DNA from: a virus
Length of the DNA: 43,719 nt
Reading direction: 5' to 3' (one strand)
Virus record (IMG/VR): IMGVR_UViG_3300030107_003260
Location: 1-43,719 of that record
Shown: piece after piece, positions 36,125-40,012 of the stretch
Layout of the letters: each line of letters begins with the position of its first letter
How positions within the stretch are numbered: the first letter of the stretch is position 1
The notes under the pieces: model-generated
Told to the model about the DNA's origin: nothing
Database searches by the model: none
Seen by the model: the letters and a program-made list of their open reading frames with translations, nothing else
Translations under genes and position numbers: made by a program

Positions 36125-36286
36125 ATGAGTAAGGAAAAGCAAAGAACATTTTTACTAAAAAACATACCTGATTCAGAGTGGAAGAAATTCAAACAAATAA
36201 CGATTGGAAGGGACTTAACTTTAAATGAGAATCTATTGAGACTGTTGACTGATTATGTCCAATTAAACTACTCAAGAAAATCATGA
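36125..36286 (+). CDS. ribbon-helix-helix DNA-binding protein
   Basis: 53 residues from a short ORF. Layout of Arc/CopG/MetJ proteins: a beta strand (RTFLLKNIP, 7-15), helix one (DSEWKKFKQITIGRDLT) and helix two (LNENLLRLLTDYVQ). RHH dimers bind short inverted repeats; a CAATGC/GCATTG dyad lies just upstream, so it is probably autoregulated. AAGGAG site eight bases before ATG. ATGA overlap with the Cas4-like nuclease, so it likely controls that gene and the recombination genes after it. Confidence 0.75.
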   Translation: MSKEKQRTFLLKNIPDSEWKKFKQITIGRDLTLNENLLRLLTDYVQLNYSRKS

Positions 36287-37101
36287 AGAAAATATCAAAG
36301 AAAATAGAAGAAATATACCACAGCTTTATTGAGGCTGAGAATCAAAAGAATGTCGAGGAGAGATACTCAGGCAAAAAGAAGTACTACCACATCAGTGCTG
36401 TTGGGATGTGCAGTAGGAGGCTGTATTTCGAATCTATTGAGCAAATAACACCAACAAACAAACCCAATGAAAAGTCATCGAGGATCATGCGACTAGGGAA
36501 TTTGGTACATGAAGATATTCAAAAAGCTCTCTCTCTATATAGCAATAATACTTATAGCAATAATACTTATAGCAATAATACTTATAGCAATAATACTTAT
36601 AGCGATGATATTTATAGCAAAGAAAAAAATTATAGAGATAATACAAAAAGAAATATTTTTGATATTGAGGGTGAAGTAATTGTTGAAGACCTGAACATCA
36701 GAGGTTTTTACGATCTTGTTATTCATGACGAAGGAGTTCATCTTATCGATTTTAAAACCATTGCTTCTTTTCCATACAAAAGGAAGTTTGGTAGAAATGT
36801 CGACATGAATCAGTCTAATCATCATGAATTGCAGGTTGCAAGTTATGGCTTAGGGGTTATCAAAGAGTTTGGGAGGCTAGATAGCATGAGTCTATGTTAC
36901 TACAACAAAGACAATTCTTATCTTAAATTTCACCCAATTTCAATGATGTATGTTGATCAGGCCAAGACTTATTGGGAAGAGATAAACGAAGAGCATAAGC
37001 GAGGATTGCCACCATTTAGGATGGGTACATCACCTAAGGCAGAGTGGGTATGTAATTACTGCTCATTTGCTGACCATTGTGGCAGTCCTTACAAAAAATA
37101 A
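36283..37101 (+). CDS. Cas4/AddB-like PD-(D/E)XK exonuclease with an Fe-S cluster motif
   Basis: 272 residues. C43 in HISAVGMCSRRLYFE; LGNLVHE (71-77) with His76; E130-E133 (EGEV); Asp144; D156-F-K158 (LIDFKT, active-site D-x-K); Q184-x3-Y188 (QVASYGL motif); and C257, C260, C266 (CNYC and HC). One Cys before and three after the nuclease core is the Cas4/AddB Fe-S arrangement. Residues 86-115 are an inserted repeat (YSNNT four times, then YSDDI and YSKEK). Such enzymes resect DNA ends for recombination, fitting the neighbouring SSB and annealing candidate. A Cas-independent role is implied, since no CRISPR genes are present. Confidence 0.85.
   Translation: MKKISKKIEEIYHSFIEAENQKNVEERYSGKKKYYHISAVGMCSRRLYFESIEQITPTNKPNEKSSRIMRLGNLVHEDIQKALSLYSNNTYSNNTYSNNTYSNNTYSDDIYSKEKNYRDNTKRNIFDIEGEVIVEDLNIRGFYDLVIHDEGVHLIDFKTIASFPYKRKFGRNVDMNQSNHHELQVASYGLGVIKEFGRLDSMSLCYYNKDNSYLKFHPISMMYVDQAKTYWEEINEEHKRGLPPFRMGTSPKAEWVCNYCSFADHCGSPYKK
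36538..36627. repeat. 15-bp TATAGC repeat array inside the nuclease gene
   Basis: TATAGCAATAATACT repeats exactly four times (36538-36597), followed by TATAGCGATGATATT and TATAGCAAAGAAAAA, all at 15-base steps. Encodes residues 86-115 of the nuclease (YSNNT units). A further related unit, TATAGAGATAATACA, lies at 36631. The control-region units at 30625 and 30655 match this consensus at 13 of 15 positions. Confidence 0.95.
36731..36760 (+). repeat. 30-bp segment shared with the 97-residue gene (copy 2)
   Basis: Partner of 35247-35276; here it encodes the nuclease active-site strand GVHLIDFKT (151-159). Confidence 0.95.
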
Positions 37102-37295: not shown

Positions 37296-37693
37296 TGAAC
37301 ATGAGAGATTTATTTAACAAATACTCATTCCTTTCTAAGAGTGAAGGGGTGGACTTTTGGAAGTGTCATAACAGCTACATATTAACCCATGATGCTGTTA
37401 CTAAAATAGCAAACTATGAACAAATAGAAATGGTAAGCATAGAATCTATTTTAAGCACTGACACAAATGTTAGATTCCTGATTACTATGAAGGATAGGAA
37501 AGGCAAACAAGTAACAACAGTTGGAGAAGCAGGCAAGATGAATTGCAAGAATGTATACTATGGAGCAATGGCTGAAAAAAGGGGCATAGATAGAGCAGTC
37601 CTTAAATTAATTAATGCCTATGAGTATGGTGTATATTCAGAAGTAGAAGCAGATGATTTTAAAAATACAACAGAGGAGAAGAACAATGGATGA
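37295..37693 (+). CDS. recombination-mediator / annealing-protein candidate
   Basis: 132 residues. VSIESILSTDTNVRFLITMK is a strand-rich core, and VYYGAMAEKRGIDRAVLKLI (88-107) resembles the '.A.AE.RA..RAL..L' helix of single-strand annealing and RAD52-like phage recombinases. It is placed between a Cas4-like exonuclease and an SSB, where recombinases usually lie. Assigned from this motif and context only. TAATG start. Confidence 0.5.
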   Translation: MNMRDLFNKYSFLSKSEGVDFWKCHNSYILTHDAVTKIANYEQIEMVSIESILSTDTNVRFLITMKDRKGKQVTTVGEAGKMNCKNVYYGAMAEKRGIDRAVLKLINAYEYGVYSEVEADDFKNTTEEKNNG

Positions 37694-38306
37694 ACAGATG
37701 ATAAACGATGCAATAAACACACCAAGTACAGAAACAACAGGTAAATCAAAATACCCTGAATGGGTTCCAATGTCAGAAGGTGAACACTTTGGACATATAG
37801 TTAAGGCTGATACCAGGAAGGTAACATGGGAGAAAGAAGGCGTTGATTATGAGGCCACAGTGTACAATTTCTTTGTAGAGATTGCACCTGAGAATGCACA
37901 GAATCAATTTGTAGTTAAGATGAATGGTGCTGATGTAACTAAAGATGGTTCTCACTATGCAGGTAAGAAAATCAAAGCTAAAGGCGTTTTTAGAATAACA
38001 AAGCCTTCTAATGATGCTAATACACAGTATACACGATTCTGTGAGGATTTAAAGCTTCCACTTGTAGATAAACAGGCAGTTGTTGATGGCAAAGAAGTTA
38101 CTATTAAAGAGCTTCCTGAGTTAACTACTGACTTTATGGAAGGTAAGCCTGTAACTGCTGTAGTGAAAGAAGGCAAGCCTTGGACTAACAAAGATGGAGA
38201 GCAGAAGAAAGGATGGGAAGTAAAGTTTACCAAGGCCTGGGCTGATGGTAAGCAAAAAGAAGCTGTTGCTGAGAAACCTGTCAGTGACGATGACCTTCCA
38301 TTCTAA
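37686..38306 (+). CDS. ssb: single-stranded DNA-binding protein
   Basis: 206 residues from ATG 37686 (GAGGAG nine bases before); the ATG at 37653 has no ribosome site and lies within the previous gene. The C-terminus is DDDLPF, the acidic tip that bacterial SSB (DDDIPF) uses to recruit replication and repair proteins. The body has an alternating pattern expected of an OB fold (YNFFVEIAPENAQNQFVVKM). It would coat ssDNA and contact host partners, which matters here as the phage lacks its own polymerase. Confidence 0.75.
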   Translation: MDEQMINDAINTPSTETTGKSKYPEWVPMSEGEHFGHIVKADTRKVTWEKEGVDYEATVYNFFVEIAPENAQNQFVVKMNGADVTKDGSHYAGKKIKAKGVFRITKPSNDANTQYTRFCEDLKLPLVDKQAVVDGKEVTIKELPELTTDFMEGKPVTAVVKEGKPWTNKDGEQKKGWEVKFTKAWADGKQKEAVAEKPVSDDDLPF

Positions 38307-38440
38307 TGAAGGCTAAAGTTACACCAATCAAGGCAATGTTTATGAGACTCTTAGTGCATTTATTTAAGAGAGACCCTATAAAGGTTGCCAAGATGTTTAA
38401 TATATCAAGAGCCACAATATACAGGCACTTGAAGAAATAA
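38306..38440 (+). CDS. 44-residue helix-turn-helix protein
   Basis: Short ORF. Basic N-terminal helix, then PIKVAKMFNISRATIYRHLK (24-43), the resolvase/invertase-type HTH (as in the Hin C-terminus). No catalytic domain is attached. TAATG couples it to ssb. Could be a regulator binding the adjacent gene-free region. Its stop codon is the first base triplet of the 10-bp long-range helix that follows. Confidence 0.65.
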   Translation: MKAKVTPIKAMFMRLLVHLFKRDPIKVAKMFNISRATIYRHLKK

Positions 38441-38725
38441 TGCAGACAAACACTTGACATATTTTGCTCATTAATTAAAATTGTTGGATTTTTGTTGATT
38501 AATTGAACAAGGTTAGATGTCACACAACATATGAAAAAGGAATTGAGTGGCTGAAAGTTGCACTAGGTCTTGGTTGAGACAGCATAAAAACTTCAGTCTG
38601 CATTAGATTTATCGATGAGAGGAAAATGCTAGGGGATGTAGGTTTTTTAGAGTCTGGTTAACTCTATGGTCTTTATTCATGACCATCCTTATTTCCTACT
38701 TGCTAAGACGTTAGCACCCTAGCAT
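38438..38725 (+). ncRNA. candidate structured RNA or leader filling a 300-bp gene-free gap
   Basis: Two domains. Domain A is closed by TAATGCAGAC (38438-38447) with GTCTGCATTA (38596-38605), ten perfect pairs, and contains a GTCT/AGAC hairpin at 38567-38580. Domain B is closed by ATGCTAGGG (38626-38634) with CCCTAGCAT (38717-38725), nine perfect pairs. Inside are GTAGG/CCTAC (38638-38642 with 38695-38699), TAGAGT/ACTCTA (38648-38666), ATGGTC/GACCAT (38666-38686) and TGCTAA-gacg-TTAGCA (38701-38716). All nest without crossing apart from one shared base. The region ends seven bases before a ribosome site. No ORF with a start site is visible. Not a tRNA, and no known RNA family recognised. Confidence 0.65.
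38454..38481 (+). promoter_or_regulatory. strong sigma70-like promoter
   Basis: Perfect TTGACA (38454-38459), 16-base spacer, TAAAAT (38476-38481). Best promoter match I found in the window. Transcription would start near 38488, just ahead of most of the structured region, so domain B would be in the 5' leader of the downstream genes or part of an independent RNA. Confidence 0.6.
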
Positions 38726-38741
38726 AAATTTAAGGAGGAAT

Positions 38742-38930
38742 ATGAGAAATCCAGGACAAGCAACATATAAAGACAGAATGAGAGAAATTAAAGAGTGTAA
38801 TACATGCAAAAAGAACGAAACTGAAGTAGAGTTTTATTTGAGATATAGAACGATATGTAAAAAGTGTCATAACAATAAATCTAAAAGCAGGTATGCTAAA
38901 AACAAAAAGAAAATGGAGAGGTATTGGTAA
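38742..38930 (+). CDS. zinc-finger protein of the HNH-associated type
   Basis: 62 residues. C-N-T-C (19-22) and C-K-K-C (39-42), between them EVEFYLRY, then a basic tail (NKSKSRYAKNKKKMERYW). It resembles the N-terminal zinc module found in front of phage HNH/endonuclease VII-type nucleases, here without the nuclease domain. AGGAGG lies only three bases before ATG. May be a nuclease remnant or a stand-alone nucleic-acid binder. Confidence 0.6.
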   Translation: MRNPGQATYKDRMREIKECNTCKKNETEVEFYLRYRTICKKCHNNKSKSRYAKNKKKMERYW

Positions 38931-39235
38931 TGAAGCATGAAGTGATGTGTACGAGAATAGAAGGCATTTTTAAACAAGTATTAAAAACACATAAAGAAGG
39001 TCAAAGGGAGTATGCTAGAGATGTAGATGATGTGTTTGCTAATTTCAAAAGAGTTGCAGACTTTGCTGATATTACTAAAGAGAAGGCTGCTTTAACATAT
39101 CTTATTAAGCATATAGATGGTATTGCTGCTCACGTTAATGGTCATAGATCTCAAAGAGAAGGGGTTAGGGGCAGGCTAACTGATGCTATTACCTACTTGT
39201 GTATATTATGGGGGATGTTCGATGAGGCTGAGTGA
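38930..39235 (+). CDS. conserved phage protein, DUF6378/DUF1599-like
   Basis: 101 residues from ATG 38930 (TAATG on the previous stop; a TTG six bases earlier is not needed). YARDVDDVFANFKRVADFAD, then a helix with LIKHIDGIAAHVNG, then QREGVRGRLTDAITYLCIL. The 'ANF.R.A....' and 'R..DA..YL.ll' blocks match a family often annotated nucleotide-modification associated. The actual role is uncertain; may bind a nucleotide. Confidence 0.65.
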   Translation: MKHEVMCTRIEGIFKQVLKTHKEGQREYARDVDDVFANFKRVADFADITKEKAALTYLIKHIDGIAAHVNGHRSQREGVRGRLTDAITYLCILWGMFDEAE

Positions 39236-39482
39236 GATGAAAGAACTGATAGCTGAGTACAACCAAGAGTCATTATTGGCTGATGGATTTGATGATGCAA
39301 TTATAGGCATAGTAGACAGCTTTTCTGACAACCCTGTTGTTCTTTATGATAAAGATAAATGTATAGACATACTATGTAAGGATATGTCCAGGGAAGAAGC
39401 TATAGAATATTTTAACTTTAATGTAATGGGAGCATACATGGGAGATAATACACCTAAATTTGCTATGTTATTTAATAAATGA
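39222..39482 (+). CDS. conserved small phage protein
   Basis: 86 residues from ATG 39222 (GGGGGA six bases before; ATG 39237 is an alternative). NPVVLYDKDKCIDILCKDMS followed by EEAIEYFNFNVMGAYMGDNTP is a phrase I recognise in many phage proteins of unknown function. Overlaps both neighbours, ending in ATGA into the nuclease gene. Confidence 0.7.
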   Translation: MRLSEMKELIAEYNQESLLADGFDDAIIGIVDSFSDNPVVLYDKDKCIDILCKDMSREEAIEYFNFNVMGAYMGDNTPKFAMLFNK

Positions 39483-40012
39483 AGAAAACACCTGAACAAA
39501 AAATAAAGGAGTACTTTAAAATGGATTGTACACAATCGTTTGAAAAAAGGGCAAAAACCACGCCTGCTGAAGATGAAATGCAAATTTACTATGAAAATAG
39601 AAAGGGAATAAAGGTAATGAGATATGGCCCTGATCAGAGGGAGCCAAGCAATCAATTTGGTGTTAGGTATTGGATGAAGATTAAAAAAGTCATAAGAAAA
39701 ACCCCTGACTATATCGTTATGGATTTAAAAAAACCTAACGCTTACTTTTTAGAAGTTAAAGGCTGTGGAAAGGATGGATTGGTTAAGCTTAAAAAAGAAG
39801 ATCTTGAGGAGTACAAAGAATGGGCAAAAGAAATGCCTTTTAGTTTTTTTGTATTCAATATGTATAAACGAGAAGTGATTCAGTTTTCTATACAAAACTT
39901 AGCAAAAACAATAAATACAAACAATATAGAGATGGAAAGATTTGAACTTGACAACAAGCTCCACTTTCCTGTACCATACAAACTATTAAAGAAAGTTAAC
40001 GAACTAAAATAA
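39479..40012 (+). CDS. PD-(D/E)XK nuclease
   Basis: 177 residues. KTPDYIVMDLKKPNAYFLEV then KG: Asp77 and E92-V-K94 form the PD...ExK active site on adjacent strands, followed by a Lys-rich helix. Single-domain enzymes of this type are Holliday-junction resolvases or restriction-like nucleases. The genome also has a RuvC-like resolvase, so this may act on other branched or damaged DNA, or on host DNA. ATGA start. Confidence 0.75.
   Translation: MKKTPEQKIKEYFKMDCTQSFEKRAKTTPAEDEMQIYYENRKGIKVMRYGPDQREPSNQFGVRYWMKIKKVIRKTPDYIVMDLKKPNAYFLEVKGCGKDGLVKLKKEDLEEYKEWAKEMPFSFFVFNMYKREVIQFSIQNLAKTINTNNIEMERFELDNKLHFPVPYKLLKKVNELK

Follow-up and report, generated by a model that had tools for sequence, protein, structure and literature searches.

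The window considered in this article is the whole of a 43,719-nucleotide IMG/VR virus record (IMGVR_UViG_3300030107_003260), which carries a P22-like portal and a Terminase_6C gene. An SSB-like gene, named from its DDDLPF end and without a family match, ends at 38306 and is followed by a 44-aa helix-turn-helix ORF (Pfam HTH_22, 1.8e-5, and HTH_7, 5.9e-5, both slightly under the curated cut-offs); further downstream lies a 62-aa zinc-finger/HNH-like ORF (79% identity in L004/L005; L numbers denote the loci compared), which starts with an ATG at 38742 behind the ribosome site AAGGAGG at about 38732. Between these two ORFs lies a structured RNA of about 290 nt (about 38439-38725), of which the fold reported in the original prediction is the 3' domain. 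The features, all on the + strand, are as follows:

38306..38440, +, 44-aa helix-turn-helix ORF, adjoining the RNA on its 5' side
38439..38447, +, 5' strand of the closing helix P0 (AATGCAGAC), pairing perfectly over 9 bp with 38596-38604
38448..38540, +, variable 5' domain between P0 and core, holding the promoter-like TTGACA..TAAAAT at 38454-38481
38546..38549, +, P1 5' strand AGUG, covarying with 38561-38564
38550..38560, +, L1 (GC), P2 5' strand UGA-(bulged A)-AGUU (38552-38559) and L2 (G 38560)
38561..38564, +, P1 3' strand CACU, with C-G and G-C exchanged between phages
38567..38580, +, P3 insert hairpin GUCUU-GGUU-GAGAC
38584..38595, +, A-rich L3 (AUAAA) and P2 3' strand AACUUCA (38589-38595), with P2 pair types GC, AU and UA
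38596..38604, +, P0 3' strand (GTCTGCATT), abutting P2
38605..38625, +, linker from core to 3' domain
38626..38725, +, 3' domain, a multi-branch fold (ViennaRNA, comparison with L003)
38626-38634/38717-38725, +, 3'-domain helix of 9 pairs (this and the next four from ViennaRNA)
38638-38642/38695-38699, +, 3'-domain helix of 5 pairs
38648-38653/38661-38666, +, 3'-domain helix of 6 pairs
38667-38671/38681-38685, +, 3'-domain helix of 5 pairs (6 if the shared base is taken)
38701-38706/38711-38716, +, 3'-domain hairpin of 6 pairs
38742..38930, +, 62-aa zinc-finger/HNH-like ORF, 3' of the RNA (phrog_2255 HNH endonuclease, E 3.7e-5)

The original prediction described five helices without an ORF, forming a closed multi-branch structure just ahead of a ribosome site, and ViennaRNA returns exactly this fold; there is no credible ORF within 38626-38725, and the ribosome site is where it was said to be. 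The stretch folds at -33.3 kcal/mol, where shuffled sequences average -20.9 (z -4.2, 0/200 shuffles as good). Most of its pairs being Watson-Crick, the reverse strand folds too (z -5.9), so that folding energy alone does not assign the strand. The nearest relatives are L002 and L003, whose neighbouring proteins stand at 78-79% and whose whole intergenic region can be aligned with the window, and the check for compensatory changes that had been proposed can be made against L003: pairing survives at both of the helix sites that differ, with A-U replaced by G-C at 38705/38712 (both sides changed) and U-A by U-G at 38639/38698. The remaining differences fall in loops and junctions and include indels of 1 and 2 bases, which exclude coding for this domain, known from two distinct phages only.

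The suggestion that the closing helix and last hairpin swap partners as a switch did not survive: TGCTA (38627, 38701) and TAGCA (38712, 38720) do occur twice each, but forced swapped pairings are 10.6-12 kcal/mol worse in the window, and the L003 hairpin is kept as UGCUGA/UCAGCA with the repeats gone, so that neither energy nor the L003 sequence supports a conserved swap structure. A metabolite riboswitch is unlikely, since the genes downstream of the core are unrelated rather than of one family or pathway, and the alternative pairing, costly as it is, is lost in L003. Similarly, the promoter proposed at 38454 is present in the window (TTGACA-16-TAAAAT, 11/12 bases), but it sits inside the RNA, within its closing helix P0, and is ruled out as a conserved feature by its absence from L003.

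The conserved unit, which the original prediction missed, begins about 190 bases 5' of the reported fold. It opens with P0, a helix that starts inside the stop codon of the helix-turn-helix ORF and closes the core domain; it recurs at the same place with different sequences in the window, L003, L013, L023, L026, L028 and L062, is not seen in L064-L096, and its observed length is reached in 0-30/500 shuffles per P0-bearing locus when base composition only is kept. Within P0, at 38546-38595, lies an H-type pseudoknot core with the signature UGGCUGnAAGUUGCA ... AUAAAAACU, which in its general form measures 33-37 nt and is composed of P1 (3-5 bp, NNUG/CANN), a 2-nt loop GC, P2 (7 bp with a bulged A, UGnaAGUU/AACUnCA), a 1-nt loop G and an A-rich strand AUAAAA; the A-rich loop may also carry a hairpin, P3. 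There are 21 invariant columns in the core: across 14 distinct core rows, AAAAACT is invariant and so is 38550-38560, save for the third P2 position, which covaries. P3 pairs in all insert-bearing copies, with different sequences in L003, L013, L021, L023, L026 and L028, and is absent in L062-L096. Identity between the window and L003 is 92% over 38540-38733, 85-89% in the flanking genes and 67.5% over 38448-38539, and the linker varies between the two with an indel. The frame of a conceivable leader peptide from GTG 38547 (MAESCTRSWLRQHKNFSLH) was rejected as not coding, since substitutions among the window, L003, L013 and L015 alter the amino acid and keep the pairs. Two details of related loci may be added: inside the P0 loop of L003 (4855-4880), AGCACTT-TATT-AAGTGCT followed by TTTTT looks terminator-like on the + strand by eye and was not flagged by the scan, and a relative, L027:9430-9570, has lost the pseudoknot core and retains a long closing stem together with a TCGTCGGGA element, which L023 and L028 also have 5' of their cores.

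A loop-anchored pattern from 38541-38600 found a second phage lineage (L013/L015) in the same sample series, and the primase-helicase of L015 was used to retrieve 80 loci of uncultured phages, marine to judge by their IMG sample numbers; the core reappears in some of them. In total it is present in 25 loci, amounting to 19 distinct uncultured-phage sequences, with a gap in pattern score between true copies (at least 25) and chance matches (at most 23). Of 50 records, 19 carry it, each in one copy (the reversed-pattern control gave zero), and it is absent at one mismatch or fewer from the other 31 related phage records, so the core is not essential to the lineage. Pattern matches in L011, L012, L014 and L018 and genome-collection matches in L019 and L020 were set aside as chance, lying in coding sequence, as was a weak model match in G007 that sits in a coding frame; blastn matches to Lak phage, HK639 and an Acinetobacter phage were rejected after reading, and others to annotated phages had E values of 2 or worse and short coverage. 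Annotated phages (50,697 records) gave chance matches only; the separate genome-collection scan covered a lineage-specific form of the pattern.

Covariation was counted over the 14 distinct core rows, with the insert omitted and the rows of a second form of the core, type B, rewritten in the order of type A. Cells of P1/P2 are paired in 96.8% of cases versus 88.4% when shuffled, and the covariation score is 0.237 versus 0.089 (0/500 shuffles; slid controls 0-0.117); the count of pairs in which both partners change is by itself weaker, being reached in 38/500 shuffles. The exchanges are C-G/G-C and A-U/C-G/G-C in P1, and G-C/A-U/U-A and G-C/G-U in P2. When a model was built without the window, L003, L013 and L021, the window copy was its sole significant match (30.6 bits, E 8e-6 under a rough calibration), and L013/L021 were recovered as well (E 4e-6, same rough calibration). 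A P1/P2 pseudoknot with UGGCUGnAAGUUGCA and AUAAAAACU, in single copy and with covariation, is what defines the new phage pseudoknot RNA family put forward here, and a sequence and structure model of the defined 37-nt core would allow its detection in any metagenome. That the locus is instead a DNA element (a replication or protein-binding site) or a set of chance palindromes that happen to fold is scarcely credible: both strands fold well and the region lies within the replication module, but G-U keeps pairing on the + strand (P2 G-U in 5 rows, P3 U-G, 38698 A to G) where the other strand would have A-C, single-nucleotide loops suit the geometry of an H-type RNA, and every copy lies on the coding strand, co-directional with the gene used for retrieval.

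The core comes in two connection orders. In L039, L043, L045, L054 and L095 the strands are ordered P3'-AUAAAA-P2' ... P1-P2-P1'-P3, and this type B is a circular permutation of the core, opened in P3 and closed by the hairpin region beyond P2. Few phage noncoding RNAs are known, and an RNA core that is circularly permuted in nature is a rarity. Published cases of natural circular permutation include hammerhead, twister, 5S rRNA and group II introns (PMC10085705). It is possible, and proposed here tentatively, that these RNAs form a new phage class whose pseudoknot core is catalytic or RNP-forming, has at least two naturally occurring, circularly permuted forms and is found once per genome in distantly related uncultured phages. 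A self-cleaving ribozyme or processing element, in which the compact core with its invariant loops would cut the polycistronic transcript or shield it from nucleases, could draw on these two orders and on the many invariant columns; however, few of the conserved bases are unpaired and no Rfam ribozyme matches the core regions of the window, L003, L013, L054 or L064, so this reading seems improbable. The likeness to hammerhead and twister (PMC10085705) is that of a small conserved core in circularly permuted orders, whereas the phage core lacks the hammerhead CUGANGA/GAAA, its P1/P2 is an H-type pseudoknot, and Rfam models find neither the hammerhead nor the twister sequence core.

At the gathering score, Rfam 15 gives no match to the window and 12 related loci, and no family matches the core taken by itself; at a relaxed E-value the matches amount to noise (eukaryotic lncRNA/snoRNA, sRNA or CRISPR-repeat families), and the L064 core draws none at all. 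A CRISPR-repeat mimic was dismissed, its sole CRISPR-DR36 match (E 0.84) being taken as chance, and so was a group I intron, the phage RNA having a P3-P7-like topology but no P4-P6; a limited library of open-access literature held no recognisable description of the core. Its two-stem pseudoknot with an A-rich L3 (AUAAAAAACU) presumably resembles the H-type aptamers of preQ1-I type riboswitches, although the phage P2 has 7 bp with a bulge, L1 is 2 nt, the neighbours are not of one pathway and Rfam finds no match. GOLLD and ROOL are structured noncoding RNAs from metagenomes, partly linked to phages. Unlike these ornate RNAs (PMC12286853), the phage RNA is about 290 nt rather than many hundreds, with a different core and no Rfam match. 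Another comparison is offered by ToxI, whose units are 36-nt pseudoknots and of which phage PhiTE expresses mimics as noncoding RNA (PMC3475682); the core is similarly compact, exists in single copy in an early operon and has an accessory distribution, so that a decoy mimicking an immune RNA of the host, for example a type III antitoxin, might neutralise a host toxin during infection. This is nevertheless highly unlikely: there are no tandem repeats in 37500-39500, no toxin-like match among the neighbours scanned (PADLOC, Pfam), the core is embedded in a larger multi-domain RNA, and no host array or antitoxin is known to carry it, the genome-collection scan having covered an over-specific pattern.

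In every case read, the core lies within an early/replication operon, and the genes that follow it are exchanged between phages: the zinc-finger ORF in the window and L003, a similar small ORF in L064, a ubiquitin-like ORF in type B phages, a class II tRNA-synthetase-like ORF in L062 and small unknown ORFs elsewhere. The zinc-finger gene, to which the original prediction tied the RNA, does follow it in the window but is one among several. A cis-acting leader would control how the next gene is translated or transcribed, for instance by binding a phage protein, and would fit a window RNA that ends 7 nt ahead of the ribosome site, as well as L064, where the core is followed by a hairpin with a U-run and then by the small CxxC..CxxC ORF (such a hairpin also closes the RNA in L043 and L054, by eye). 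There is also a precedent in phage SSB autoregulation, the T4/RB69 gene 32 mRNA leader pseudoknot (PMC535899), which is likewise of the H type and carried by the transcript of a phage replication gene. However, that leader precedes the SSB gene, while the window RNA has its SSB-like gene upstream and the zinc-finger ORF next, a comparison that is one of placement; together with the varied downstream genes and the lack of a conserved swap structure, this leaves a cis leader rather unlikely.

Because the genes around the core vary from phage to phage, an RNA with a function of its own is favoured. The reading preferred here, with middling confidence, is a noncoding phage RNA about 290 nt long, most likely transcribed within the early/replication operon, which would fold stably and present a conserved pseudoknot face to one conserved host or phage partner, with P3 and the 5' and 3' domains as exchangeable supports that differ between phages. 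By this account the RNA would act in trans and the pseudoknot would bind its partner; counting against it, the RNA is always in an operon and near a ribosome site, which fits a cis leader too, the 3' domain is confined to two distinct phages, and 31 of the 50 related records lack the core. As to the functions originally suggested, a structured RNA is supported by conservation, by pairing-preserving changes and by a core common to other phages, with the free-standing RNA fitting best, the regulatory leader possible and the switch discarded. A strongly conserved RNA that uncultured phages carry in single copy in their replication region would suggest that the hosts contain a conserved molecular partner.

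The surroundings of the RNA merit description in their own right. In many relatives (L066:7942-8415, L069, L072, L096, L062) the RNA is directly preceded by an HNH (endonuclease VII-like) gene, with the core of L069/L072 beginning within a few bases of the HNH stop codon, whereas in the window the HNH-like zinc-finger fragment sits 3' of the RNA instead. In phages with the permuted core, the small ubiquitin-like protein is encoded directly 3' (L095:507-752, L039:1138-1371; Rad60-SLD, E 4e-4, under the curated cut-off), and a ThiF-like protein is found in the L015 lineage (L015:5967-6677). The protein encoded immediately 3' of the RNA at L062:4826-5647, on a phage contig, has a class II tRNA-synthetase catalytic domain (PF00152, E 9e-15) in only 274 aa and is possibly asparagine-synthetase-like. 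Tiny helix-turn-helix proteins of 42-44 aa with an xTIYRxLxK end recur (window 38306-38440, L039:8766-8894, L066:8936-9067), and the Cas4-like/exonuclease protein at 36283-37101 of the window (phrog_1706) is internally repetitive around residues 90-112, where YSNNT units may form a variable linker.
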